Shown here: piece by piece, positions 2,772 to 61,395 of the stretch | How positions within the stretch are numbered: the first letter of the stretch is position 1 | Layout of the letters: every line of letters starts with the position of its first letter | DNA from: a virus | Strand: one strand, 5' to 3' | DNA: 64,000 nucleotides | Virus record (IMG/VR): IMGVR_UViG_3300028859_000017 | Location: 1-64,000 of that record | The notes under the pieces: generated by a model | Database searches by the model: none | The model's input: only the letters and a program-made list of their open reading frames with translations | What the model was told of the DNA's origin: nothing | Made by a program: the position numbers and the translations under genes

Positions 2772-5651
2772 CTAATAAAATAATAATTGTCTGAAATTTT
2801 CCAAGTTAGTTTCACGATTAATCCAAAGATATCTCAAACCATCCATAGTTGAGAAAATTTCCATTCTATTTCCAAGCAAAGCAGCAGGAGCAGCATAAGG
2901 ATACATACCAGCACCATGTATTGTATTTGTATTTAAATCAATATAATACATTCTTTGAGTGGCTTCTTTTGTAAAATAGATTCTGTTCTGACCATCATAA
3001 GCATACATACTACCAGTAGATAAAGTTTCTGTTTGTGGTGTAGTGGGCATAGCATAAAAAGTATCAGTAGTAATATCTAATTTATCAAAACCAACAGCAC
3101 CACCACCTCTAGCTATAACCCAATATTTTCCTGAGTTTGGAGAAGAACCTGGATAACCAGTTGGAGTGCTTAAACCAAAAATTCCCTGTAAATCTATACC
3201 AGTGCCTCTTGCTGTCTGTTGAAAAATAATATAAGAAGAAGCAGCAGTTGTAGCAGAGGTTCCTAAGGTTCCTACAGTTAAAGCATTGGCCGTATTAGAA
3301 GTTATAGATACTTCTGAAGTAGTTCCTTGTCCTGGGCCGGCTATTATTTTTACTTTTCTACCAGCTAAACCGTTCACAACCCAAGCATAACTTATAGTAG
3401 CTGCTGAAATAACTGCTGTTGAAGCCATGGATAATTGATAAGTTCCAGTGCTTCCTAAAACTCCTCCAGTAGCTGTAGAAGTAAGTTGATTTATAATAAC
3501 TGCCCCAGCTGGAATAGAGGTTCCTGTGATAGATGTGATGCCACCAGAAGATAAATAGCCTGCTGGAGCTGTAGATACTGTTAAGGTAGTACTTCCTGAA
3601 GACATTGAACCTGTAAAAGTTCCTGACTTGTTTGTATCAGTAATTAAAACTGTTGATTGTGTTCCTGTAGCTAATCCATTATCTAACATTCCTGGAGATA
3701 GTCTAGGAGTAATTATATATCTTGATACACCTGTTATGGGAGTTGTTCCAGTAGTTACAAAGGTTAAAGTGGTAGCTGTGTTAGAGGCTATCTGAAAAGC
3801 CTGACCAGTAGCTAACCCTGTAGCGGCTGTTACGGCACTTACAGTAGAATAACAAATATACCCAGCCCATTGGTTTACTATCCAAGCTTTAGTTTCATCA
3901 CACAAAGTACTAGTAGATTGAGAACCAGCTAAAGTGTCAGCAGCAGGAGTTCCAGCCATAGTATAAGTAAATGAAGTAGTAGATGGCACAGTTAAAATAG
4001 TAGCTGTGGTGTTATAGTTGGAATCTGTCATTCCCTTAACTGTTACTGACATTCCAACTTTAAGACAATGAGGAAATGAAGTAGTTATTGTAGCTGTTGT
4101 AGTAGCATGAGTGGCTGACGCAATTCCAATTGGTCTTAAAGAACTATATAGAACCACAGCATTACAGGCTATTCCAGAATCCTGCCATCTTCCAAAGGTA
4201 GGTAAATCATCAGAGTAATTATAAATCATAGCACCAGCAGTTCCGCCAGCCATACAATAAGTTTTCTCACTATCTGGTATAATAGTATATACAGAGGTAG
4301 TGTCAGTGGCTACAGAAAAGGATTTAACTAAGGTTAAAGTGGTAGCTGTGTTAGAGGCTATCTGTGTGAATTGTCCCTTACCAGTACCAAATAAAATCTT
4401 TACCATAAAGTTAGCAAATCTATTTACTGGCCATGCTTTGGAAGAATCTATAATACTTGAAGCCGATCCAGTAGTAACTGTCCCACAATCATACCCCTCA
4501 ATTACATAATTTGTAGTTGTGTCTGGAGCAGTAGTTACAGCAGCAAAAGTTAAAGTAGTGGTAGTGTTAGAGGCTATTTTTGCTATCTGACCCTCACCAG
4601 TTCCACTAAAAAAATAAACCTGATTTCCAACAAATTGATTAATGGCCCAAGTATGAGTAGAATCTATTAAAGTAGTAGTAGTTCCCACTGCGCTACTAGT
4701 TCCTCTTGCCCATACGGTTGCTGCTGAACCAGAGTGGTCCAATGAGCCATCACTAGCTACTCCTGGTAAATTAAGCGTTACAGCAGTTTTTATATACCAA
4801 GTATCAGATACTATATTGTAATATTGAGCTGTGTAGAATGGTTGAGCTGCAGCACTGGAAGCTAAGGATATAACTCCAGATTCTACACGATATTGTGAAG
4901 TAATATCAGGAGTAGTTAACCAATTGCTATCTACAGTAACGACAGATGCTTCAATAGTGTAAATAGACTGTGAACCAGCTGTAGCTACAATAGCTGGAGA
5001 AGTTATATTTGGATTACACCATACATTTTGAGCAGAGAGTGTAGAGTCACCCAAAGTTAATACAGTAGCAGAGTTATAAAGAATTAGTCTAACTTGACCT
5101 ATACCAGTTCCATAACTAATTCTTACCTGGTATCCTGCCCATTGATTTACAGTCCAAGCTTTTGTAGAATCTGTTATAGTTAAGGAGCCTAATACGTTAT
5201 TTACTCCAGTAACTACGCCAGTATCGAAAGTCATAGGTTCTGCTACATCTGTTATGAGCTTTCTCTGTCCCATTCCAGTTCCGCCTATTATTTTAATATC
5301 ATATCCCAATAAAGCTTTTGAAGAATATGCTGGAATAGTTATTGTATTGGATGTAGCAGCTAATACTAAACCCTCTATGGCTTGAGTTTGGTCAAATTCT
5401 ATATCTGCCCAAGTAGCTGGAGCAATTGGAGGAGTTTGTAATTGCTCATATGTATCAGACCATGTATCATACCTCCAAAAGTTAGCAGCTGTTATCAAAA
5501 AATAAAGATATCTACCATGAGTTTGATTATACAAAGAGTTATTAGCACAACAAGTAGCTGAAGGAACTGCTGAGGCAATAGGTGAAAATCGCAACCATTC
5601 CCAAATAGGAATGTCCACCTGTTTACGTAGAGTATTTACTAAACTAGTCAT
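2772..5651 (-). CDS. Large virion protein with repeated beta modules and kelch-like ends
   Basis: The 959-residue protein contains five or six divergent copies of a 60-120-residue module. The recurring features are D-x-T-K-A-W-x-V-N-Q-x-A-G, a glycine-rich GTG-GQ turn and IASNTATTLTL. The N-terminal 60 residues (YLFLITAANFWRYD) and the last 110 (YDGQNRIYFTKE, MYYIDLNTNTI) look like kelch/beta-propeller blades reading out coordinate-like strands, so the repeats may be inserted in a propeller. There is no enzymatic motif. The ATG is preceded by TTAAGGAT. Neighbours are fibre-like proteins on both sides. The most likely role is a tail fibre, baseplate appendage or receptor-binding protein; the exact role is unknown. 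Confidence 0.75.
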   Translation of the reverse strand: MTSLVNTLRKQVDIPIWEWLRFSPIASAVPSATCCANNSLYNQTHGRYLYFLITAANFWRYDTWSDTYEQLQTPPIAPATWADIEFDQTQAIEGLVLAATSNTITIPAYSSKALLGYDIKIIGGTGMGQRKLITDVAEPMTFDTGVVTGVNNVLGSLTITDSTKAWTVNQWAGYQVRISYGTGIGQVRLILYNSATVLTLGDSTLSAQNVWCNPNITSPAIVATAGSQSIYTIEASVVTVDSNWLTTPDITSQYRVESGVISLASSAAAQPFYTAQYYNIVSDTWYIKTAVTLNLPGVASDGSLDHSGSAATVWARGTSSAVGTTTTLIDSTHTWAINQFVGNQVYFFSGTGEGQIAKIASNTTTTLTFAAVTTAPDTTTNYVIEGYDCGTVTTGSASSIIDSSKAWPVNRFANFMVKILFGTGKGQFTQIASNTATTLTLVKSFSVATDTTSVYTIIPDSEKTYCMAGGTAGAMIYNYSDDLPTFGRWQDSGIACNAVVLYSSLRPIGIASATHATTTATITTSFPHCLKVGMSVTVKGMTDSNYNTTATILTVPSTTSFTYTMAGTPAADTLAGSQSTSTLCDETKAWIVNQWAGYICYSTVSAVTAATGLATGQAFQIASNTATTLTFVTTGTTPITGVSRYIITPRLSPGMLDNGLATGTQSTVLITDTNKSGTFTGSMSSGSTTLTVSTAPAGYLSSGGITSITGTSIPAGAVIINQLTSTATGGVLGSTGTYQLSMASTAVISAATISYAWVVNGLAGRKVKIIAGPGQGTTSEVSITSNTANALTVGTLGTSATTAASSYIIFQQTARGTGIDLQGIFGLSTPTGYPGSSPNSGKYWVIARGGGAVGFDKLDITTDTFYAMPTTPQTETLSTGSMYAYDGQNRIYFTKEATQRMYYIDLNTNTIHGAGMYPYAAPAALLGNRMEIFSTMDGLRYLWINRETNLENFRQLLFY

Positions 5652-5660
5652 TTTTTATCC

Positions 5661-6266
5661 TTAATTTCCAAAAATTAATTGAGAACGTATTCCAGTATTA
5701 TAAGCAGTTCTTGCCATATCTATCATCTGCCACTCAGGGTTTCCTCCTCCAATAGTGGCTACGTTACCTACTGGAACAGCATTTGTAATTGTTGTAATAG
5801 TACCTCCAGTAATTGTGGATACAGTACCTACAGTAGTAATAGTTTGACCAGCAGTAATTGAATCTACTGTAACTCTCTGTCTTTGAGCATTATCTTGAGT
5901 AGATAATGGTTCTAGAAGGTCACACATTTTTTGAAGCAATAAATGTAAATCAGCATCTATGGCGCTTGCTGTATCTAAATGTGTAGTAGTTGGAACATCT
6001 ACATAAATTTGTAATGTGTCTGTAGATGATAAAGCTGAACAATTATAGGCCAATGTTAGAACGTTATTAGAAATATTTCCCTGTAAAGCTACATTAGCAA
6101 AATTATATAAAATAATTCCAGCAGTTGTATCAGTAATTAAAAGAAGTTGTTCATCTGCTAAATTAATAGACAGATTTAAAAAAGTTATTTGATTTGTACT
6201 TGGATTAAATAAATAGTTTCCAAAAGTCATTCCATTTTGAACATCATGGCCTATTAGTATTTTCAT
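5661..6266 (-). CDS. Virion structural protein, unidentified (201 aa)
   Basis: The N-terminus (MKILIGHDVQNG) leads into beta-rich sequence with LLLITDTTAGIILYNF. A helical stretch follows at about residues 115-135 (LLLQKMCDLLEPL), and then a Thr/Val/Ile-rich tail of short GTVSTITGG-type repeats. This combination is common in small phage virion proteins adjacent to fibres. The start ATG has an upstream TTAAGGAT site, and the gene lies 10 bases from both neighbours in one transcription unit. No specific family is recognised. A fibre-associated or baseplate-decorating role is inferred from context only. Confidence 0.7.
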   Translation of the reverse strand: MKILIGHDVQNGMTFGNYLFNPSTNQITFLNLSINLADEQLLLITDTTAGIILYNFANVALQGNISNNVLTLAYNCSALSSTDTLQIYVDVPTTTHLDTASAIDADLHLLLQKMCDLLEPLSTQDNAQRQRVTVDSITAGQTITTVGTVSTITGGTITTITNAVPVGNVATIGGGNPEWQMIDMARTAYNTGIRSQLIFGN

Positions 6267-9026: not shown

Positions 9027-9542
9027 TTAAAAGTAAAGACTCCATGCTACACTTATACTAATAGAACTTGACTTAGTGATAGTAGAAAAACGCTTAATAC
9101 TAAAAGCAGAAGGAGTAGTAGAGTTTAGCATCAAAGCCAATTCATTAATTCCATAACCATTTAAAGCACTAACTTCTGGAATTAAAATAGTATATATTAT
9201 TTTTGGACTAACAGATGCTGAAATAGCATCTATAGCTGAATGGTCTATATTAAAAGTAAAATCAGTACCTAATACTAAATTTGGAATAGCATTTATTACA
9301 GTTAATTCGGTTGGCTGTACTGCTATAACTTGACTTGAGCTTCCCGAGACTGTGCCACCTGTTCCAAACGCAATTGTATTTATAATTGGACATACTCCAC
9401 TTATTAGGCTATTAGCAATATCATTTCTACCATTTAAGACTATTAAATTATGGTCTTTTAACAACATAGTGATATTTCCTGCTCTATCTTTTGAAGTTAT
9501 TGTAAGTTCACCACGAAGGGGTTGAGCATCTGAAAAATTCAT
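9027..9542 (-). CDS. Virion structural protein (171 aa), fibre/baseplate type
   Basis: A strand-rich N-terminus (LRGELTITSKDRAGNI, LLKDHNLIVLNGRND) is followed by the conserved-looking block IINTIAFGTGGTV and a C-terminal run NGYGINELALML...FSIKRFSTITKSSS. The sequence IxELALM-x(n)-F-S-I-KRF-x-x-I-x-KS is a recurring feature of small tail proteins that sit at the tip or baseplate edge. A clear ribosome site (TAAGGAT) precedes the ATG. It is upstream of the gp15-like gene with a 15-base gap. No precise homologue is named. Confidence 0.65.
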   Translation of the reverse strand: MNFSDAQPLRGELTITSKDRAGNITMLLKDHNLIVLNGRNDIANSLISGVCPIINTIAFGTGGTVSGSSSQVIAVQPTELTVINAIPNLVLGTDFTFNIDHSAIDAISASVSPKIIYTILIPEVSALNGYGINELALMLNSTTPSAFSIKRFSTITKSSSISISVAWSLYF

Positions 9543-9576
9543 ACTATAATCCTTATTATAATTAATTCAAAATAAA

Positions 9577-9729
9577 CTATACCACTAAATTTTCTATATA
9601 AGACTCCAAATTCTTCTCTTCTGTATATAGAATAATTAGTTTTATATTGGTTTTCCTGGCTGCCAAACAAAAACCCTCCTTAGTGAGGGCAAATTGTTGT
9701 AAATCTTTCAACTCATACTTCTTAGACAT
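9577..9729 (-). pseudogene. Internally deleted remnant of the zinc-module/Vsr-like endonuclease family (50 codons)
   Basis: A 50-codon frame joins the two ends of a much larger family found elsewhere in this window. Its start, MSKKYELKDLQQFALTKEG, matches the first zinc module of the proteins at 33658, 46869 and 50721. Its end, NIKLIILYTEEKNLESYIEN, matches their extreme C-terminus. Everything between (remaining zinc modules and the nuclease core) is missing, so the product cannot be an active enzyme. It has its own AGGAGAT ribosome site and the CCGATAATA promoter-like motif 17-26 bases upstream. This looks like a decayed homing gene left between a baseplate-edge gene and an acidic hypothetical gene. 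Confidence 0.75.
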
Positions 9730-9745
9730 ACCTATCTCCTATAGG

Positions 9746-9755
9746 TATTATCGGT
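9746..9755 (-). promoter_or_regulatory. CCGATAATA promoter-like element
   Basis: On the minus strand this reads ACCGATAATA, 17-26 bases before the ATG of the endonuclease remnant. It is one of eight intergenic copies of the same element in the window. Promoter function is inferred from position and repetition. Confidence 0.5.
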
Positions 9756-10492
9756 TATTTTTTGTTACTTTTCATCAAATTTAGGGCTATAGGATTATCA
9801 ATTCCTGCCACACTATATCCCTCTATATCATCTTCAATAGATTTTATATTATTTTTACCAAAGGGAATAGGAGGTTCGGTCATAGCTTGTATTATTGGAT
9901 TGCCTATAACTCCTTGTCCGGCTTTATTTATTGCTGCTATAAGTTCTTTTGGTAAAATTTCTGATTGTGGTAAAATTACTAGAAAATCGTAATCTAATTT
10001 ACTATCTTTATCCTTTTTTTCTGGTTCTTCTACTTCTTTAACTTTATCATCTTCTATTTTAGTTTCTTTTTCCTTACTATCAAGAGGTGCTAAAACTTCA
10101 TCATCTAATACTTCTACTTCTTCTGATACCACCTTCTCTGGGATATTAGGTAGAGCATTATTTTGTGGCTGTAAATCAGTAAATGTAATTCTATAAGGTT
10201 TTGAAATACCTAATAATAGGCTACCATCATAAGTTTTTTTAAGTTCTGCTTCTGTAGTTTTAGGTGCCTCTAAAGTATTAAATTTTAAATCAGTGCTAGG
10301 AGTTGTAGATACATCACTAGGCTGTTGTTGTAATTTATTCTTATCTATTTCTTTATTCTGATAAAGAGCATTTAAGCTATCTATATTTAGATTTTCCCTA
10401 AGCAACGAAGTCTTAGATGCTAAAACTTCGTTTTTTCTTTCTGCTATAGTAGGAAAATCTAAAAAAGAAAAATTTTTTCTTTGTTTATACAT
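9755..10492 (-). CDS. Acidic hydrophilic protein, unidentified (245 aa)
   Basis: The protein begins with a basic, aromatic stretch (MYKQRKNFSFLDFPT). It then becomes strongly polar, with a Glu/Lys/Asp-rich segment at about residues 120-170 (EEVEVLDDEVLAPL, EEPEKKDKDSK) that is probably disordered or coiled. The last 75 residues are more ordered, with LPKELIAAINKAGQGVIGNPI. No enzymatic motif is seen. The ATG overlaps the stop region of the gene above it, so the two are likely translated together. It sits between virion genes; a virion-assembly or accessory role is possible but not shown. Confidence 0.6.
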   Translation of the reverse strand: MYKQRKNFSFLDFPTIAERKNEVLASKTSLLRENLNIDSLNALYQNKEIDKNKLQQQPSDVSTTPSTDLKFNTLEAPKTTEAELKKTYDGSLLLGISKPYRITFTDLQPQNNALPNIPEKVVSEEVEVLDDEVLAPLDSKEKETKIEDDKVKEVEEPEKKDKDSKLDYDFLVILPQSEILPKELIAAINKAGQGVIGNPIIQAMTEPPIPFGKNNIKSIEDDIEGYSVAGIDNPIALNLMKSNKK

Positions 10493-33154: not shown

Positions 33155-33661
33155 CTACATATATTTAATTATAATGCTATCTAATTGGCTATATAGATTC
33201 TCAAATGATGAATTATTATCTACTATATAATCATAATCAGTAAAGAAATCTAACTCTAATTCTGAAGAGTGGTTCATATTGGTTGCTCCCCTACTAATTC
33301 TTACATCCTCATTAGCTACTATTCTAATAACAATAAAACCTTCCTCTTTTAATTTAATAAGTTCATTGAGATATCTAGAGTCTGTGATAAATATAGAATT
33401 TGTATTACATTTCATTTTATCTATTAATTTAGATACCCAAATATCAGATTGCTGTTGTCTAGCCCAATCACCTAAAAATTGTAAAAACACTCTATTTTTT
33501 TCTTGTTTAAATCCTAAATTATCTTGAACCATATGTAAAATATCGTATATGGGCTCAGCAAATGAGAACAATTCGGCATTTTTAATATAATTATGTTTAA
33601 TATAAGTAGCAGAAACATCCTTACCGCTCCTCATATTTCCAGCAAAGGCTATTTTTATCAT
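33155..33661 (-). CDS. 1: Deoxynucleoside monophosphate kinase
   Basis: The P-loop GNMRSGKD lies at residues 8-15. SFAEPIYDIL, DWARQQQSDIW and a conserved DSRYLNELIKLKEEGF follow, then RISRGATN. This order belongs to the T4 gp1-type dNMP kinase family, which phosphorylates dTMP, dGMP and 5-hydroxymethyl-dCMP for phage DNA synthesis. At 168 residues it is shorter than T4 gp1 (241). The ATG at 33661 has GAGGAG nine bases upstream. It overlaps the upstream endonuclease gene's stop by four bases (ATGA). Confidence 0.75.
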   Translation of the reverse strand: MIKIAFAGNMRSGKDVSATYIKHNYIKNAELFSFAEPIYDILHMVQDNLGFKQEKNRVFLQFLGDWARQQQSDIWVSKLIDKMKCNTNSIFITDSRYLNELIKLKEEGFIVIRIVANEDVRISRGATNMNHSSELELDFFTDYDYIVDNNSSFENLYSQLDSIIIKYM

Positions 33662-34890
33662 ACTGTAATCTCCTCGATATATTGTTCTAAGTTCTTTTCT
33701 TCTGTGTATGGAATAATTATTAGTTTTATATTATTTTCCTTAGCATATTGAACTTTCTCTATATCACGTTGCCTAGCTTTTAAATATTGTTCTTCTGTTT
33801 TATGAAAGTAATTTGGATAGATATAATGCTGATAACCATGATATTCAAAGGCTATTTTATGGTCTTCATTATAGCCATCCCATTCATATCTTTTACTATC
33901 GTACAAAAACCTTGTTTTAGTCAGAGTAAAACCAAACTTAGATTCTAATAATTCCTTACATCTAAGTTCTGTCTTAAAGGAAGCACATTCAGGACACCAA
34001 GTATTACTATTTTTAATATGGCCCCAATTAGCTTCCCATTGATGTGTTTCTTTACATTCCCATAATAATTTATTACTATTATCTATATAAGTTGTGGATA
34101 ACAATTTTCCTTTTTTACTCTTAGCAAAATTTTGTAGCTCTATAATATCAGGTTTAGCCTTCCTAGCACAAATAGCACACCAGCTATTACTATTTTTAAT
34201 ACTGCCCCAATTGGCTTTCCACTCATGTCCTTTTTCACATTTCCATAACATCTTAGTAATATTATTTATATACTCAGTAGAGACTAACTTGCCACCTTTA
34301 TTTATGGCATATTCTTGTAATTCAGTTATATTAGGTTTAAGTGAGGAGCACCCAGGACACCAACTTTTTTTATTTTTAATATCTGTCCATTTAGCTTCCC
34401 ATTGATGCCCTTCCTCACATTCCCATAACATCTTAGTAATATTATTTATATACTCAGTAGAGACTAACTTGCCACCTTTATTTATGGCATATTCTTGTAA
34501 TTCAGTTATATTAGGTTTAACACTACCTGAACAGTAGGGACACCAACTTTTTTTATTTTTAATATCTGTCCATTTAGCTTCCCATTGATGCCCTTCCTCA
34601 CATTCCCATAACATTTTAGTCTTACTATTTATATATTTAATAGATACTAACTTGCCACTTCTGCTTCTAGCAAATTTTTGTAATTCAGTTATATTACATT
34701 TTTTAACCTTCCAAGCACAGTAAGGACACCAACTTCCTTGACGAACACTATTCCAGTTAGCTTCCCATTGATGCTTTTCTTTACATTCCCATGACATTTT
34801 TGTGAGAGCATTTATATACTCAGTAGATATTAACTTACCATCTTTATTAAGGGCAAATTCTTGACATACTTCTAAGTTACACTTTTTCAT
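33658..34890 (-). CDS. Five zinc modules fused to a Vsr/EDxHD-like nuclease (410 aa)
   Basis: Residues 1-300 hold five tandem modules of about 60 residues. Each has the pattern ITELQ-x2-A-x6-GKL-ST-YIN-x-TK-x-WEC-x3-HQWEA-W-x8-WCP-x-C, resembling the treble-clef zinc finger called DUF4379 in other organisms. Residues 305-410 form a nuclease: YEWDGYNEDHKIAFEYHGYQHY, then RQRDIEKVQYAKENNIKLIIIPYTEEKNLEQY. These acidic residues, the GYQHY histidine and the RD-x2-K block match the Vsr-like EDxHD fold seen in phage homing enzyme I-Bth0305I. DNA cutting is inferred. Adjacent modules are near-identical in DNA, implying recent duplication. It overlaps the dNMP kinase start by four bases. Confidence 0.8.
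   Translation of the reverse strand: MKKCNLEVCQEFALNKDGKLISTEYINALTKMSWECKEKHQWEANWNSVRQGSWCPYCAWKVKKCNITELQKFARSRSGKLVSIKYINSKTKMLWECEEGHQWEAKWTDIKNKKSWCPYCSGSVKPNITELQEYAINKGGKLVSTEYINNITKMLWECEEGHQWEAKWTDIKNKKSWCPGCSSLKPNITELQEYAINKGGKLVSTEYINNITKMLWKCEKGHEWKANWGSIKNSNSWCAICARKAKPDIIELQNFAKSKKGKLLSTTYIDNSNKLLWECKETHQWEANWGHIKNSNTWCPECASFKTELRCKELLESKFGFTLTKTRFLYDSKRYEWDGYNEDHKIAFEYHGYQHYIYPNYFHKTEEQYLKARQRDIEKVQYAKENNIKLIIIPYTEEKNLEQYIEEITV
34242..34614 (-). repeat. Near-identical 180-183-base tandem module repeats inside the endonuclease gene
   Basis: Bases 34242-34340 recur almost exactly at 34422-34520 (offset 180). Bases 34355-34431 recur at 34538-34614 (offset 183). The unit corresponds to one 60-61-residue zinc module. 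Such sequence identity, including third positions, points to a recent unequal-crossover gain of modules. Confidence 0.85.
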
Positions 34891-46868: not shown

Positions 46869-47762
46869 TTATCTACCTATTATATCACTTATATCACTTA
46901 TATAACTCTCTAAATTTTTCTCTTCTGTATAGGGTATTATGATTAGTTTTATATTATTCTCTTTGGCATATATCACTTTATCCATATCACGTTGTTTAGC
47001 TTTTAAATGCTGTTCTTCTGTTTTTTGAAAAAAATTTGGAAATATATAGTGCTGATAACCATGATACTCAAATGCTATTTTATGTTCTTCATTATAACCA
47101 TCCCATTGATATCTATGTTTATTATATTTAAAATTAGTCTTTATAAATTTAATATTTAGTTTTTGTTCTAATAACTCTTTACATTTATACTCTGTCTTAA
47201 AAGAGGCACATTCAGGACACCATTGCCTTTGATCCTTTATAGCATGCCATATAGCATGCCATATAGCATGCCATTGATGACCCTCTTTACATTCCCATAG
47301 CATTTTAGTATTATTGTTTATATAAACAGAGTCTAAACATTTTCCATTTCTTGATTTAGCATAATTACAGCACTCAGAAATATCGGATTTAACATTCCCG
47401 CAGCAATATGGGCACCAAGTATTATCTGAGTTAACTACATGCCAACAAGAAAACCATGAGTGACCACTACTACATTCCCACTCCATCTTAGCTTTATTAT
47501 TGGTGTAGTTAGTTGACTTCAGTTTTCCTCCTCTAGCTATAGCATAGGCTTGTAAAATCTCTATTGAAGTCCTAACACAACTATTACAAGTAGGACACCA
47601 AGTATTATGAAAGCTTACCTCACTCCAGTTAGCCTTCCACTGATGACCCTTCTCACATTCCCATAACATCTTTGTTCTATTATTTATATAAACAATATCC
47701 AAGCATTTACCATTCTTAGATTTAGCATGCTCTTGACATACCTCTATAGTTCCTCTTCTCAC
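46869..47762 (-). CDS. Three zinc modules fused to a Vsr/EDxHD-like nuclease (297 aa)
   Basis: Three tandem zinc modules occupy residues 1-195 (CQEHAKSKNGKCLD, WECEKGHQWKANW, then WCPTC; and two further copies). The C-terminal domain has YQWDGYNEEHKIAFEYHGYQHYI, KAKQRDMDKVIYAKENNIKL and IIPYTEEKNLESY, as in the copies at 33658 and 50721. The start is GTG at 47760-47762, with GAGGAG upstream and the stop of the previous gene touching. The third module carries a 12-base tandem triplication (HAIWHAIWHAI). It sits immediately upstream of the terminase, two bases from its start region. Confidence 0.8.
   Translation of the reverse strand: MRRGTIEVCQEHAKSKNGKCLDIVYINNRTKMLWECEKGHQWKANWSEVSFHNTWCPTCNSCVRTSIEILQAYAIARGGKLKSTNYTNNKAKMEWECSSGHSWFSCWHVVNSDNTWCPYCCGNVKSDISECCNYAKSRNGKCLDSVYINNNTKMLWECKEGHQWHAIWHAIWHAIKDQRQWCPECASFKTEYKCKELLEQKLNIKFIKTNFKYNKHRYQWDGYNEEHKIAFEYHGYQHYIFPNFFQKTEEQHLKAKQRDMDKVIYAKENNIKLIIIPYTEEKNLESYISDISDIIGR
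47239..47274 (-). repeat. Three tandem 12-base copies inside the endonuclease gene
   Basis: The unit ATAGCATGCCAT occurs three times in a row on the plus strand, exact. It encodes HAIW three times in the third zinc module. This keeps the frame and lengthens the module by eight residues. Slippage during replication is the simplest explanation. Confidence 0.9.
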
Positions 47763-48296: not shown

Positions 48297-49613
48297 TTAT
48301 AACTTTCTAAAAATTGTAATCATTCTAAATCTATGATTAGTAGACTTACACATTCCTATTACAGCCTCTAAACTAAATTCATCCTTTCTATACATTGGAA
48401 GAACTTGGTCTAACCATACAACATAAGTTCCAGATACTAGCCCTCTTCCTAAGGCCTTCATTACTTTATTTCGTTTAATCATAGTAGTTTGATAGTGGTC
48501 ACAATCCTCAACTGAATATGGAGGGTCTGCTAATACTAAATCAAAAGTAGCTAATGGAACATTAAGTAGTGATTGAGCATCGTCTACATAATCAGGATTA
48601 TTAGCTGGATTTATATCTACAGTCTTACCAGGAAATATAACTGTATCAACTTTACCAGAAAACAAATGAAGAACATTCAATTTATCAGGAAAAAGTGCCT
48701 TAATACGTTTTAAATAGCCAGCTGGGTATGAATTATGAGAAGCCAAACCATAGGCTACAAAAGTTTTTGACTCTGTATTCATACCAATAAATTCATGGTC
48801 GGAATTAGTTGGAGTTATACATTTAATTTTAATAACTCCATTTTTTATTGGTAATTTCGAATTTATCCAGCCATTTAACATTCTAATTGGCCTAGTAATT
48901 CCAAGAAGCATTAATGAATCTGAAAAATTGTTAGTTCTTGTTTCACATTGAACTTTGCCAGTTTTTCTGTGCCTCTCTTTAGAAACAAATGGAACTTTAA
49001 GCAATGTCAAAATATCTATTATTTTACTTTGTACTAATCCTGGATTCTGTGTTATATTAATACGAAGCCCCGCGCCGGAATCTAAATTGCCTTCTCCATC
49101 AATAATTCCACCTAACCAACCAGCATCATTACTGTTGTCTACATTATCCCATTGATTACATACCGCTCTAATTAAATCTCCATTTTTAAGCTCATCTGCC
49201 CTTCTCCATGTAGTTCTATTTTTTGGTTTACTATTCCCATTAACTAGCCAAAGATGACTATTACTACAGATAAAATTCCTCCCGTCTTCTAATTCAATTT
49301 TTATTCCCGGTAAAGTTACTGGTCCCACATCAATTACCTTTGTTGGGTATACTGCTCTTTTATTTAAATTAATAATAGTTTCGTCAAATCCAACAAGCAT
49401 ATCACCCGCTTTGACTTTGGACATAGGAATCCATCGTAAATCAGCAGTAAGCACTGGAGCATCTGGTGCCAAACAGCCATAATAATCTTTTCTTGCTTGA
49501 TAGTTATTGCCCATAATCCAAGTCCCTACAACCCTATCATCCTCTCCTATAAATAAAGACTTAGGAAATCCTGTCTCTTTTACATAATTTTCTATTCTTT
49601 CTTCCCAGTTCAT
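48297..49613 (-). CDS. DNA methyltransferase (DPPY type) interrupted by an intein
   Basis: The 438-residue product is a spliced-protein precursor. The exteins are residues 1-46 and 295-438. Joined, they read ...IMGNNYQARKDYYG then SYPAGYLKRIKALF, a continuous sequence. LHLFSGKVDT is the SAM-binding strand, and DLVLADPPYS is the catalytic DPPY motif (363-366) of an N6-adenine or N4-cytosine methyltransferase. The mature host protein is only 190 residues, which is small but has the essential motifs. The phage may mark its own DNA against host nucleases or regulate genes. The intein is described separately. The gene lies between the sigma and terminase genes. Start ATG has an AAGGAATG site. Confidence 0.8.
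   Translation of the reverse strand: MNWEERIENYVKETGFPKSLFIGEDDRVVGTWIMGNNYQARKDYYGCLAPDAPVLTADLRWIPMSKVKAGDMLVGFDETIINLNKRAVYPTKVIDVGPVTLPGIKIELEDGRNFICSNSHLWLVNGNSKPKNRTTWRRADELKNGDLIRAVCNQWDNVDNSNDAGWLGGIIDGEGNLDSGAGLRINITQNPGLVQSKIIDILTLLKVPFVSKERHRKTGKVQCETRTNNFSDSLMLLGITRPIRMLNGWINSKLPIKNGVIKIKCITPTNSDHEFIGMNTESKTFVAYGLASHNSYPAGYLKRIKALFPDKLNVLHLFSGKVDTVIFPGKTVDINPANNPDYVDDAQSLLNVPLATFDLVLADPPYSVEDCDHYQTTMIKRNKVMKALGRGLVSGTYVVWLDQVLPMYRKDEFSLEAVIGMCKSTNHRFRMITIFRKL
48732..49475 (-). mobile_element. Intein with a LAGLIDADG-like motif inside the methyltransferase
   Basis: The intein spans residues 47-294 (248 aa). It starts with Cys: CLAPDAPVLTADLRWIPMSK, then VKAGDMLVGF (block A). Block B reads GRNFICSNSHLWLV with its histidine. 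Residues 166-176 (WLGGIIDGEGNL) are a LAGLIDADG-type endonuclease motif with the acidic residue. Block F/G is KTFVAYGLASHN with the terminal His-Asn, followed by Ser as the +1 extein residue. Only one such motif is visible and the length is short, so it may be a minimal or partly decayed endonuclease. Splicing is inferred from conserved ends. Confidence 0.85.
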
Positions 49614-50720: not shown

Positions 50721-51782
50721 TTATATAGTTATATTCTCTATTTGCTTATTAATATATTCCTCTAAATTATTATTTTCAGTATATGGAATAATTATTAATT
50801 TTATATTATTTTCATTAGCATATATCACTTTATCCATATCTCTTTGAACTGCTTTTTCATGTATCTCTAAAGTTCTATGCCAATGATTAGGATAAATATA
50901 ATGCTGAATTCCTTGATACTCAAAGGCTGCTTTATGTTCCTCATTATAGCCATCAAATTCATATCTATTACCCTTGTAAATAAAACGTGTCTTCTTAAAT
51001 TTATAACCTAATTTTTGCTCTAAAAGTTCTTTACATTTATATTCTGTTTTAAAAGAAGAACATTCAGGGCACCAACTATGGTTATTTTTAATATTATCCC
51101 AAATAGCTTCCCACTGATGACCTTTTTCACACCCCCATACCATTTTTGTATTACTATTTATATATTTAGTGGATATTAATTTACCTTGTTTGCTAGAGGC
51201 AAATTGCTGTAACTCAATAATGCTACATTTTCGTAATTCAGCACAGCACTCTGGACACCAACTTTTGGAATTTTTAATGTGATCCCAACGAGCTTCCCAT
51301 TGATGACCCTCTGAACACTCCCATAATAATTTAGTATTATTATTTATATATTTAATAGATAATAGTCTTCCATTTTTATTTTCAGCATGTTTTTGTAACT
51401 CCTTTATATCACAAAGGGTGCTAGAACATGCTGGACACCACTGACCAGCATTTTTAATATTATTCCAACAAGCTTCCCATTGATGCCCCTCTGAACACTC
51501 CCATAATAATTTAGTATTATTATTTATATATTTAGTGGATATTAATTTACCTTGTTTGCTAGAGGCATATTCCTGTAATTCAATTATATTAGGTTTAGCT
51601 TTTCCAGCACAATAAGGACACCAACTACCACTATTAATACTATTCCAATGAGCTTCCCATTGATGCCCATCTTTACATTGCCACAATAATTTATGCTTAC
51701 TATCAACATATTCTGTAGATAATAATAAGCCACCTTTAGCAGCAGCAAAGGCCTGTAAGGTAGCTACATCATATTTTTTCAT
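50721..51782 (-). CDS. Four zinc modules fused to a Vsr/EDxHD-like nuclease (353 aa)
   Basis: Four tandem zinc modules cover residues 1-240, each with a LQ-FA/YA-x4-G-LST-YV/YI, then W-C-GHQWEA-W and WCPYC / WCPAC / WCPEC. The nuclease region runs from residue 250 (YKCKELLEQKLGYKFKKT), with YEFDGYNEEHKAAFEYQGIQHYI, and RDMDKVIYANENNIKLIIIPYTENNNLEEY. Compared with its relatives, the second conserved residue pair reads EYQG rather than EYHG, which may alter the centre. It abuts the recA stop and is followed by a terminator, so it is an intact cassette beside recA. Confidence 0.8.
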   Translation of the reverse strand: MKKYDVATLQAFAAAKGGLLLSTEYVDSKHKLLWQCKDGHQWEAHWNSINSGSWCPYCAGKAKPNIIELQEYASSKQGKLISTKYINNNTKLLWECSEGHQWEACWNNIKNAGQWCPACSSTLCDIKELQKHAENKNGRLLSIKYINNNTKLLWECSEGHQWEARWDHIKNSKSWCPECCAELRKCSIIELQQFASSKQGKLISTKYINSNTKMVWGCEKGHQWEAIWDNIKNNHSWCPECSSFKTEYKCKELLEQKLGYKFKKTRFIYKGNRYEFDGYNEEHKAAFEYQGIQHYIYPNHWHRTLEIHEKAVQRDMDKVIYANENNIKLIIIPYTENNNLEEYINKQIENITI

Positions 51783-53012: not shown

Positions 53013-53165
53013 CTATAGGTTAGTGATATAATCTTCTAAATTCTTTTCTTCTGTATAGGGTATTATTAATAATTTTATATTATTTTCTCTAGCATATTCT
53101 ATCTTATCTAAATCACGTTGTTTTGCTGCTAAATGTCTAAGGTCTGTAATAGTATAAGTAATCAT
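53013..53165 (-). pseudogene. C-terminal remnant of the zinc-module/Vsr-like endonuclease family (50 codons)
   Basis: The frame encodes a short product whose last 40 residues match the end of the full-length family: HLAAKQRDLDKIEYARENN and then IKLLIIPYTEEKNLEDYITN. Compare RQRDIEKVQYAKENN and IIPYTEEKNLEQY at 33658. All zinc modules and the GYQHY part are absent. The first 10 residues look unrelated. It sits between recA and the gp32-like gene, bounded by the terminator at 53182-53212. A decayed homing gene is the best reading. Confidence 0.8.
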
Positions 53166-53181
53166 AGGATATACCAGAAAT

Positions 53182-53212
53182 AAAAATGCCTACAAATTAT
53201 CTTGTAGGCATT
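53182..53212 (-). terminator. Rho-independent terminator after the gp32-like gene
   Basis: AATGCCTACAA pairs with TTGTAGGCATT (11 pairs) around a six-base loop, with TTTTTATTT following on the minus strand. It lies 18 bases after the ssDNA-binding gene stop. Confidence 0.88.
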
Positions 53213-57308: not shown

Positions 57309-57318
57309 GTCGATACTT
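57309..57318 (+). promoter_or_regulatory. GTCGATACTT promoter-like element upstream of the primase gene
   Basis: GTCGATACTT lies 17-26 bases before the ATG at 57335, with GGGAGG between. It is the plus-strand version of the repeated CGATAWT element, which here shows C in one position. Confidence 0.45.
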
Positions 57319-61053: not shown

Positions 61054-61395
61054 ATGGATTTAATAAAGAAAGCATATGTTTGTGTTAATTGTAAACACAA
61101 GGGAGTAATTCTTAATGCTATTAAAAAGAACGAAGTAATTAGTACTGATTTTTTAAGTGATTATGTTAGACCTTTGGGAATAATTACTGATTCAAAAATT
61201 TATAAATACAATATCATTAGAGATGACTGTGACATTGTTGTAAGTAAGAAACCTTTTGAGTGTGTGTGTGAGAAGTGTGGAAAATCCTCAATAGAATATA
61301 TACCAACTCAGAAGTTTGATAATGTTCTTAACTTCTATAGTGCTGCTGAACCTGAGAAATGGCTTAGGGGCTTTAATGGCTTGGGAAAACGGTAG
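61054..61395 (+). CDS. Small zinc-ribbon protein (113 aa), relative of 60608
   Basis: Two CxxC pairs are seen: CVNCKHKG near the N-terminus and CVCEKCGKSS at about residues 70-80. Between them are polar strand-rich residues (VISTDFLSDYVRPLGIITDS). The relation to the 137-residue protein is suggested by cysteine spacing and a shared IxK motif context. The ATG follows AAAGGACTTTAACTT. No enzymatic function is visible. Confidence 0.65.
   Translation: MDLIKKAYVCVNCKHKGVILNAIKKNEVISTDFLSDYVRPLGIITDSKIYKYNIIRDDCDIVVSKKPFECVCEKCGKSSIEYIPTQKFDNVLNFYSAAEPEKWLRGFNGLGKR

Follow-up and report, generated by a model that had tools for sequence, protein, structure and literature searches.

To our knowledge, the exit of selfish endonuclease genes from genomes is seldom caught in the act. 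The window analysed here, a stretch of 64,000 nucleotides from a virus record of 80,322 bases (IMGVR_UViG_3300028859_000017) with T4-like gene content, holds between two phage genes a frame of 50 codons that resembles the beginning and the end of an endonuclease joined together. This raises the questions of whether the frame is what is left of such a gene and, if so, why it is still there. Regarding the setting, Pfam matches identify a gp15-like tail sheath stabiliser and a gp32-like protein; further T4-like genes are a gp23-type capsid, a gp18-type sheath, a gp20-type portal and a RecA-like protein called uvsX, and the large terminase of the record is related to the terminases of T4-like phages. 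Other T4-style gene names used here are our own labels.

The two halves of the remnant and their intact relatives

The remnant and the three full-length members of its family in the window are the following.

9577..9729, minus strand: remnant open reading frame (ATG, 50 aa and TAG), a head-and-tail fusion of a zinc-module/Vsr-fold endonuclease
9661..9729, minus strand: head, codons 1-23, with homology to the start of the first module in the 33658-34890 endonuclease
9580..9660, minus strand: tail, codons 24-50, with homology to the nuclease domain's last strand and helix
33658..34890, minus strand: full-length family member, 410 aa, five zinc modules and, by homology, a Vsr-like domain
46869..47762, minus strand: full-length family member, 297 aa, three modules, structure predicted
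50721..51782, minus strand: full-length family member, 353 aa, four modules

The peptide encoded at 9577-9729 on the minus strand is MSKKYELKDLQQFALTKEGFCLAARKTNIKLIILYTEEKNLESYIENLVV. When compared by blastp with the 1,395 stop-to-stop frames of the window, it matched the C-termini of three long proteins and also a second short frame of the same family (53016-53189, stop to stop). We scored its two halves separately, the first 24 residues against a profile of 14 family heads and the rest against a profile of 13 family tails; several sequences in these profiles are near-duplicates, and both remnants of the window were excluded. Results showed that the head reached 25.3 bits and the tail 33.9 bits, while none of 20,000 shuffles was as good for either half (best shuffle 13.2 bits for the head, with 16,148 shuffles scored, and 14.8 bits for the tail, with 19,931 scored). 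At the DNA level, the head has 40 identities out of 69 at the start of the 410-aa gene (position 34890); among 127,862 placements on the two strands of the window, itself excluded, this is the best (runner-up, 36). Since the profile scores beat all shuffles and the head DNA is placed at the start of a paralogue, we conclude that the head-and-tail fusion is real. This confirms what an earlier note on this DNA had proposed, by the very comparison with shuffled sequence that it had set in advance. The note was also right that the start of the first module is joined to the tail of the family, but the tail amounts to about 27 residues and not to 20.

Thus the frame carries both the N-terminal module start and the C-terminal strand and helix of the zinc-module/Vsr-fold family (phrog_559), the tail corresponding to the final strand and helix predicted by the model of a full-length paralogue. 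The head covers some 22-23 residues of module 1 and contains none of the zinc ligands (CxxxH.W / CPxC); the complete frame has one cysteine and no histidine, and searches of the remnant gave no DUF4379 or CapR match in Pfam at E 1 and no PHROG match at E 0.01. The catalytic core (the DGYN...FEYHGYQHY region) is missing from the 50 aa, the tail is one isoleucine codon short relative to the family, and a proline shared by all 13 aligned relatives is changed. Because it has neither a zinc module nor a catalytic core, the remnant is expected to have lost both DNA cleavage and the kind of DNA recognition of its relatives.

The intact paralogues, whose modules were counted by motif, all match DUF4379 in Pfam, and the CapR match is strong in two of them and at E 0.16 in the other. 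They also match phrog_559, phrog_681 and phrog_9084, which are annotated as HNH endonuclease, endonuclease and homing endonuclease; the HNH label does not fit the fold that we found. The three endonucleases gave no NCBIfam match at the cut-offs of that collection, and solved structures searched by sequence with the family alignment gave none either. In the structure predicted for the 297-aa protein (mean pLDDT 82, pTM 0.51), residues 183-297, the C-terminal domain, superimpose on Vsr (1cw0) with Z 9.7 over 109 residues and on I-Bth0305I (3r3p) with Z 8.6 over 94 residues, at about 16% identity; Foldseek gave the two probabilities of 0.82 and 0.90, but with weak E values of 0.5 and 0.2. The model assigns a Vsr-like nuclease fold, named EDxHD for Vsr-like enzymes in PMC6083498, to the C-terminal domain of this paralogue; of this fold, the remnant retains the last strand and helix only. 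By itself the fold cannot identify a homing endonuclease, as two mitoribosomal proteins reach comparable values (Z 9.3). Serial zinc modules are also known from homing endonucleases of the CapR/DUF723 type in ICP1 and other phages, described as bead strings of zinc modules with a T5orf172 domain and as subject to in-frame deletion by recombination between repeats (PMC10448857). The catalytic domain is T5orf172 there and Vsr-like here, and the deletion in the remnant took every complete module as well as the core. Among phage records, tblastn with the 410-aa protein found 293, the best place in each being below 60% identity, and tblastn with its last 61 residues found one weak match.

The number of modules varies between related phages. 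The endonuclease behind uvsX has 353 aa and four modules in the window (50721-51782), 475 aa and six modules in contig L037 (7004-8431) and 355 aa and four modules in contig L036 (489-1556), while uvsX is nearly identical across these phages, which points to fast gain, loss and shuffling of modules. Compared with its 293-aa counterpart at L037:3908-4789, the 297-aa protein of the window (46869-47762) has an additional four-residue HAIW repeat in the third module. Another family member, at L068:2501-3182 (also in L069 and L070), has its tail in a different frame from its modules and is probably frame-shifted.

The site of the remnant and its counterpart in a diverged relative

The remnant lies between two genes, the second of which has a promoter-like motif of its own.

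9755..10492, minus strand: upstream flanking gene, 245 aa (homologue in contig L035 at 4752-5399)
9027..9542, minus strand: downstream flanking gene, 171 aa, phrog_5417 (homologue in L035 at 5479-5985)
9560..9567, minus strand: late-promoter-like motif AATTAATT of the 171-aa gene, kept in L035

After the remnant come the 171-aa gene and then the gp15-like tail sheath stabiliser. We scanned IMG/VR with the 171-aa, gp15-like and 245-aa genes as queries, singly or as two-row alignments, and each scan returned three or four contigs, always from one set of four. Three of these match the window almost exactly, at 98.6-100% over 10.6-12.5 kb, and all carry the remnant. The fourth, L035, is a diverged relative with the same gene order, whose flanking genes are 34% and 47% identical to those of the window and are separated by a gap of 79 nt. 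This gap contains a terminator-like hairpin (GGGCCCTAATTTTTGTTAGGGCCC then TATTTTTAT; 10-pair stem, -18.8 kcal/mol) and the GAATTAATT motif, and nothing else. No family match was obtained in the 33-kb record of L035, an empty search answer that by itself is weak evidence. The endonuclease sequence is thus present in the window and the three close contigs and absent from L035, as is characteristic of homing endonucleases. The full-length gene that the earlier note had proposed to look for at this locus in relatives did not appear: the four contigs comprise three copies of the same remnant, one empty site and no intact allele. For this reason, the ancestor at the site is inferred from paralogues, and the order of events is a proposed one.

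All 153 nt of the remnant are unchanged in the three other close contigs. The surrounding 1701 nt are nearly identical as well, with 0, 0 and 2 differences, so this identity is uninformative on selection. Rfam gave no match over 9300-10000.

The motif AATTAATT occurs 24 times in 61.5 kb, and for 12 of the copies a gene start follows within 60 nt (0.66 expected); capsid, sheath, tube and portal are among the genes so preceded. By inference from this distribution, AATTAATT is a late promoter. The locus does lie in the structural region, among tail and virion genes and beside the 171-aa and gp15-like genes, and the earlier view of a former insertion site agrees with the empty site of the colinear L035. 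That view placed the insertion inside a structural operon, but with a terminator followed by the late-type motif AATTAATT, it is more fitting to speak of an operon boundary.

Local hairpins and the start element

The 5′ part of the remnant contains the following sequence features.

9665..9690, minus strand: intrinsic-terminator-like hairpin inside the open reading frame, GCCCTC-ACTAAG-GAGGGT and then TTTTGTTT, a sequence feature
9728..9748, minus strand: perfect 8-bp hairpin around the ribosome site, ATACCTAT-AGGAG-ATAGGTAT, from folding of the ribosome-binding site (RBS)
9746..9753, minus strand: promoter-like start element CGATAATA, 6 nt before GGAG, from the composite-element scan

A consensus scan of 20 kb ranked GCCCTCACTAAGGAGGGT-TTTTGTTT first of 12 terminator-like sites (7.3 expected), and its hairpin, at -9.1 kcal/mol, is the only one of the 12 with four G-C pairs. 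Under strict rules, we found 10 terminators on the two strands of the window, compared with 2, 1, 3 and 0 in four window shuffles. The 216-nt junction between the flanking genes contains one strict terminator, inside the frame, a result equalled by 2 of 3000 junction shuffles. Strict sites on the minus strand number seven (among them 9673, 29082, 37243, 52988 and 53185); two are within other genes, and four of the other five are in or border a mobile endonuclease gene or remnant. Junctions with a terminator may be preferred or tolerated as insertion sites.

In an alignment with the 410-aa gene, the bases of the hairpin fall on its FALNKDG codons, and 22 of 27 are identical over CAA..GGT. None of 20 endonuclease-type genes has a strict terminator between -60 and +150 nt of its start and one has a weaker one; some of the 20 (16 locus ORFs, the three of the window and the site-2 copy of L036) are near-duplicates and about five are remote or uncertain members, so that fewer independent cases are represented. 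Judged from these sequences, the terminator seems to have been gained on the lineage of the remnant; the corresponding junction of the relative L035 has a terminator too. A chance gain of the hairpin is possible, because the head of the paralogue already shares these 22 of 27 bases and few changes would be needed. By analogy with mobE of T4, the allele at this site may also have carried a terminator from the outset. Translation of the frame could weaken a terminator inside it. Folding of larger RNAs gave z -1.90 for the 218-nt junction (12 of 200 shuffles as good) and z -1.28 for the 76 nt from the ribosome site to the T run (22 of 200 as good). Since these wider folds are only moderately better than shuffles, we restrict our claim to the two local hairpins.

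The start codon and the ribosome site that the earlier note had reported are both kept, as ATG with AGGAG 6 nt ahead of it. As for the promoter-like element, sigma-70-like sites show no excess in the 20 kb (102 found, 101.0 expected), but a phage-specific composite, CGATANNN-N6-SD with GGAG, AGGA or GAGG as SD, occurs seven times in the window, whereas 200 shuffles had a mean of 0.24 and a maximum of 2. Six of the seven copies immediately precede a start codon (positions 57310, 61026, 52973, 44866, 37170 and 9754). The genes bearing the element are uvsX, a primase-like gene with a DnaG-type zinc ribbon (a match under the cut-off of Pfam), the gene 61054-61395, two HNH-type genes and the remnant. 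The element is also found ahead of the gene before uvsX in the relative G001 (sampled as L015 and L038), and another match, in L035, is located within a gene. From its placement, CGATANNN-N6-SD is a candidate for a class of phage promoters before replication-type genes and mobile endonucleases.

In the RBS hairpin, AGGAG occupies the loop and the first two bases of the ATG are in the stem; CGATAATA overlaps the 5′ arm. A hairpin of the I-TevI/segB/mobE type would sequester the RBS, and its promoter would lie such that its own transcript lacks the 5′ arm. We compared the stability of the RBS region across all 56 gene starts in four foldings, as the energies vary with the stretch folded. The remnant ranked 1st, 1st, 9th and 1st. 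The RBS regions of eight endonuclease genes or remnants were more stable than those of the other 48 genes (P = 0.0003, 0.0001, 0.025 and 0.0001), and the P values of the group without the remnant were 0.0009, 0.0004, 0.052 and 0.0003. RBS hairpins of I-TevI, segB and Aeh1 mobE are expression controls in T4-type phages, according to a review of T4 endonucleases (PMC2988022).

Readings of the remnant and a second decayed site

On balance, we think it probable that the remnant is an internally deleted free-standing homing endonuclease gene whose regulatory shell survives and serves as an operon terminator. On this account, a free-standing zinc-module endonuclease gene would have inserted downstream of the 245-aa gene and ahead of the late-type promoter that belongs to the 171-aa gene, and insertion at this terminator/promoter boundary would have displaced the terminator. 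An internal deletion would then have removed roughly 250-360 codons, an estimate based on the three paralogues, so that 23 codons of the head and 27 of the tail were left joined in one frame. The 5′ shell would persist in the form of the phage start element, the RBS hairpin and an intrinsic terminator made from former FALNKDG-type head codons. This terminator would end transcription arriving from the 245-aa gene as well as any begun at the element of the remnant itself, which may be active; a transcript initiated near 9740 would be about 75 nt long, and the virion-region genes that follow would be driven by their own AATTAATT promoter. Against this explanation count, above all, that the scanned contigs contained no intact allele of the site, and also the fact that the empty site is shown by one diverged relative only and the modest size of the terminator, which has six pairs including one G-U compared with the 10-pair stem of L035.

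The same deletion could be plain decay, a neutral relic nearing loss in which the hairpin and its T run are accidental and have no role. Deletion or breakage of the frame is indeed recurrent in the family, as seen in the tail remnant at 53013-53165, the out-of-frame tail of L036 and L074 and the copy in L068, and the changed invariant proline fits decay as well. However, so few junction shuffles contain such a terminator, the same junction of L035 also has one, and the start element and the RBS hairpin are intact, that we regard decay without any role as rather unlikely, if still deserving serious attention. That the head might be chance sequence with an ancestral terminator, read into a frame of which the tail alone derives from an endonuclease, would suit the terminator found at the same place in L035 and the head of the second remnant, which is not significant. 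This alternative is strongly disfavoured, to the point of being scarcely credible, by the score of the head against shuffles, by the placement of its DNA at the start codon of a paralogue and by the alignment of the terminator bases with paralogue codons.

The remaining readings give a function to the frame itself. The 50-aa peptide could be a retained functional product that, for instance, modifies the intact endonucleases or competes with them; the frame is open, has a start codon and a ribosome site and is identical in the three other close contigs, and the second remnant likewise leaves an open frame of 50 aa. Yet the peptide has no complete zinc module and no catalytic core, the invariant proline is changed, a terminator-like hairpin lies within the frame and the identity of the contigs says nothing on selection, given how little the surrounding sequence differs. 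We found no positive evidence for the retained short peptide that the earlier note had considered, and hold it to be very improbable. A less remote, though still improbable, option is that the operon boundary uses the captured dead endonuclease as a translation-gated attenuator, so that reading of the frame would be the function and the peptide irrelevant. In that case, the RBS hairpin would decide whether ribosomes enter the 50-codon frame; ribosomes covering the terminator would let the polymerase run into the tail genes, and without ribosomes the hairpin would stop it.

Returning to the operon-terminator reading that we favour, its elements have known parallels. The free-standing endonuclease genes mobE and segF of T4 have intrinsic terminators in their 5′ coding regions, regarded as expression controls in a role that is partly speculation in the review itself (PMC2988022). 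Like the remnant, both are endonuclease-derived genes between phage genes with a terminator in the first codons, and at mobE the downstream gene also has its own promoter, as it does here (PMC2988022). As a sequence feature, the remnant has an internal terminator of this type. In contrast, mobE and segF are working endonucleases of other nuclease classes, whereas the remnant consists of shell and tail, the enzyme being gone. T4 I-TevIII was likewise a homing endonuclease, inactivated by a large deletion and functional in the relative RB3 (PMC2988022); it is, however, intron-encoded and has that intact form, and none is known at the site of the remnant. A homing endonuclease remnant as such is therefore ordinary, and both 5′-end terminators and inactivation by large deletion have been published (PMC2988022). 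A limited search of the open-access literature returned no report of a dead endonuclease as an operon terminator. Here the death stage is visible alongside an empty allele of the site, intact paralogues in the same phage and decayed copies elsewhere. The suggested reason for persistence is that insertion displaces a stop signal and that the remnant would be kept once its own sequence supplies one. The T4 review makes the case that an endonuclease gene is more readily retained when it has promoters embedded in it (PMC2988022). If true, our proposal would be the terminator counterpart of this effect, outliving the enzyme.

The second decayed site of the window lies between the gp32-like and uvsX-like genes.

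53013..53165, minus strand: second remnant, 50 aa; the tail is certain and the head is not

Its tail scores 83.9 bits, with none of 20,000 shuffles as good. We rejected a head-and-tail fusion in this case: the head scores 1.0 bits, 2767 of 20,000 shuffles were as good and, because it fails this test, we claim the tail alone. A 50-aa frame of this kind is found at this site in contig G003 (L037:9662-9814). G004 (L036:2780-3252) and L074 (2498-2924) carry a different allele, in which the two modules are fused to a tail that lies in another frame. No family match was obtained in the diverged relatives G001 and G002 (L015 and L016), and in L015 a 109-aa gene is found at the site instead. Terminators flank this site also, and a similar terminator is on one side of the endonuclease sequence in G004/L074 and on the other side in the window; the alignment of the site is poor outside the tail and the terminator. 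Elsewhere in the window, the gene 48297-49613, between gp16-like and sigma-like genes, encodes 438 aa compared with 190 aa in G003 (L037:5324-5896), and the extra part, which weakly matches intein models, looks like an intein.
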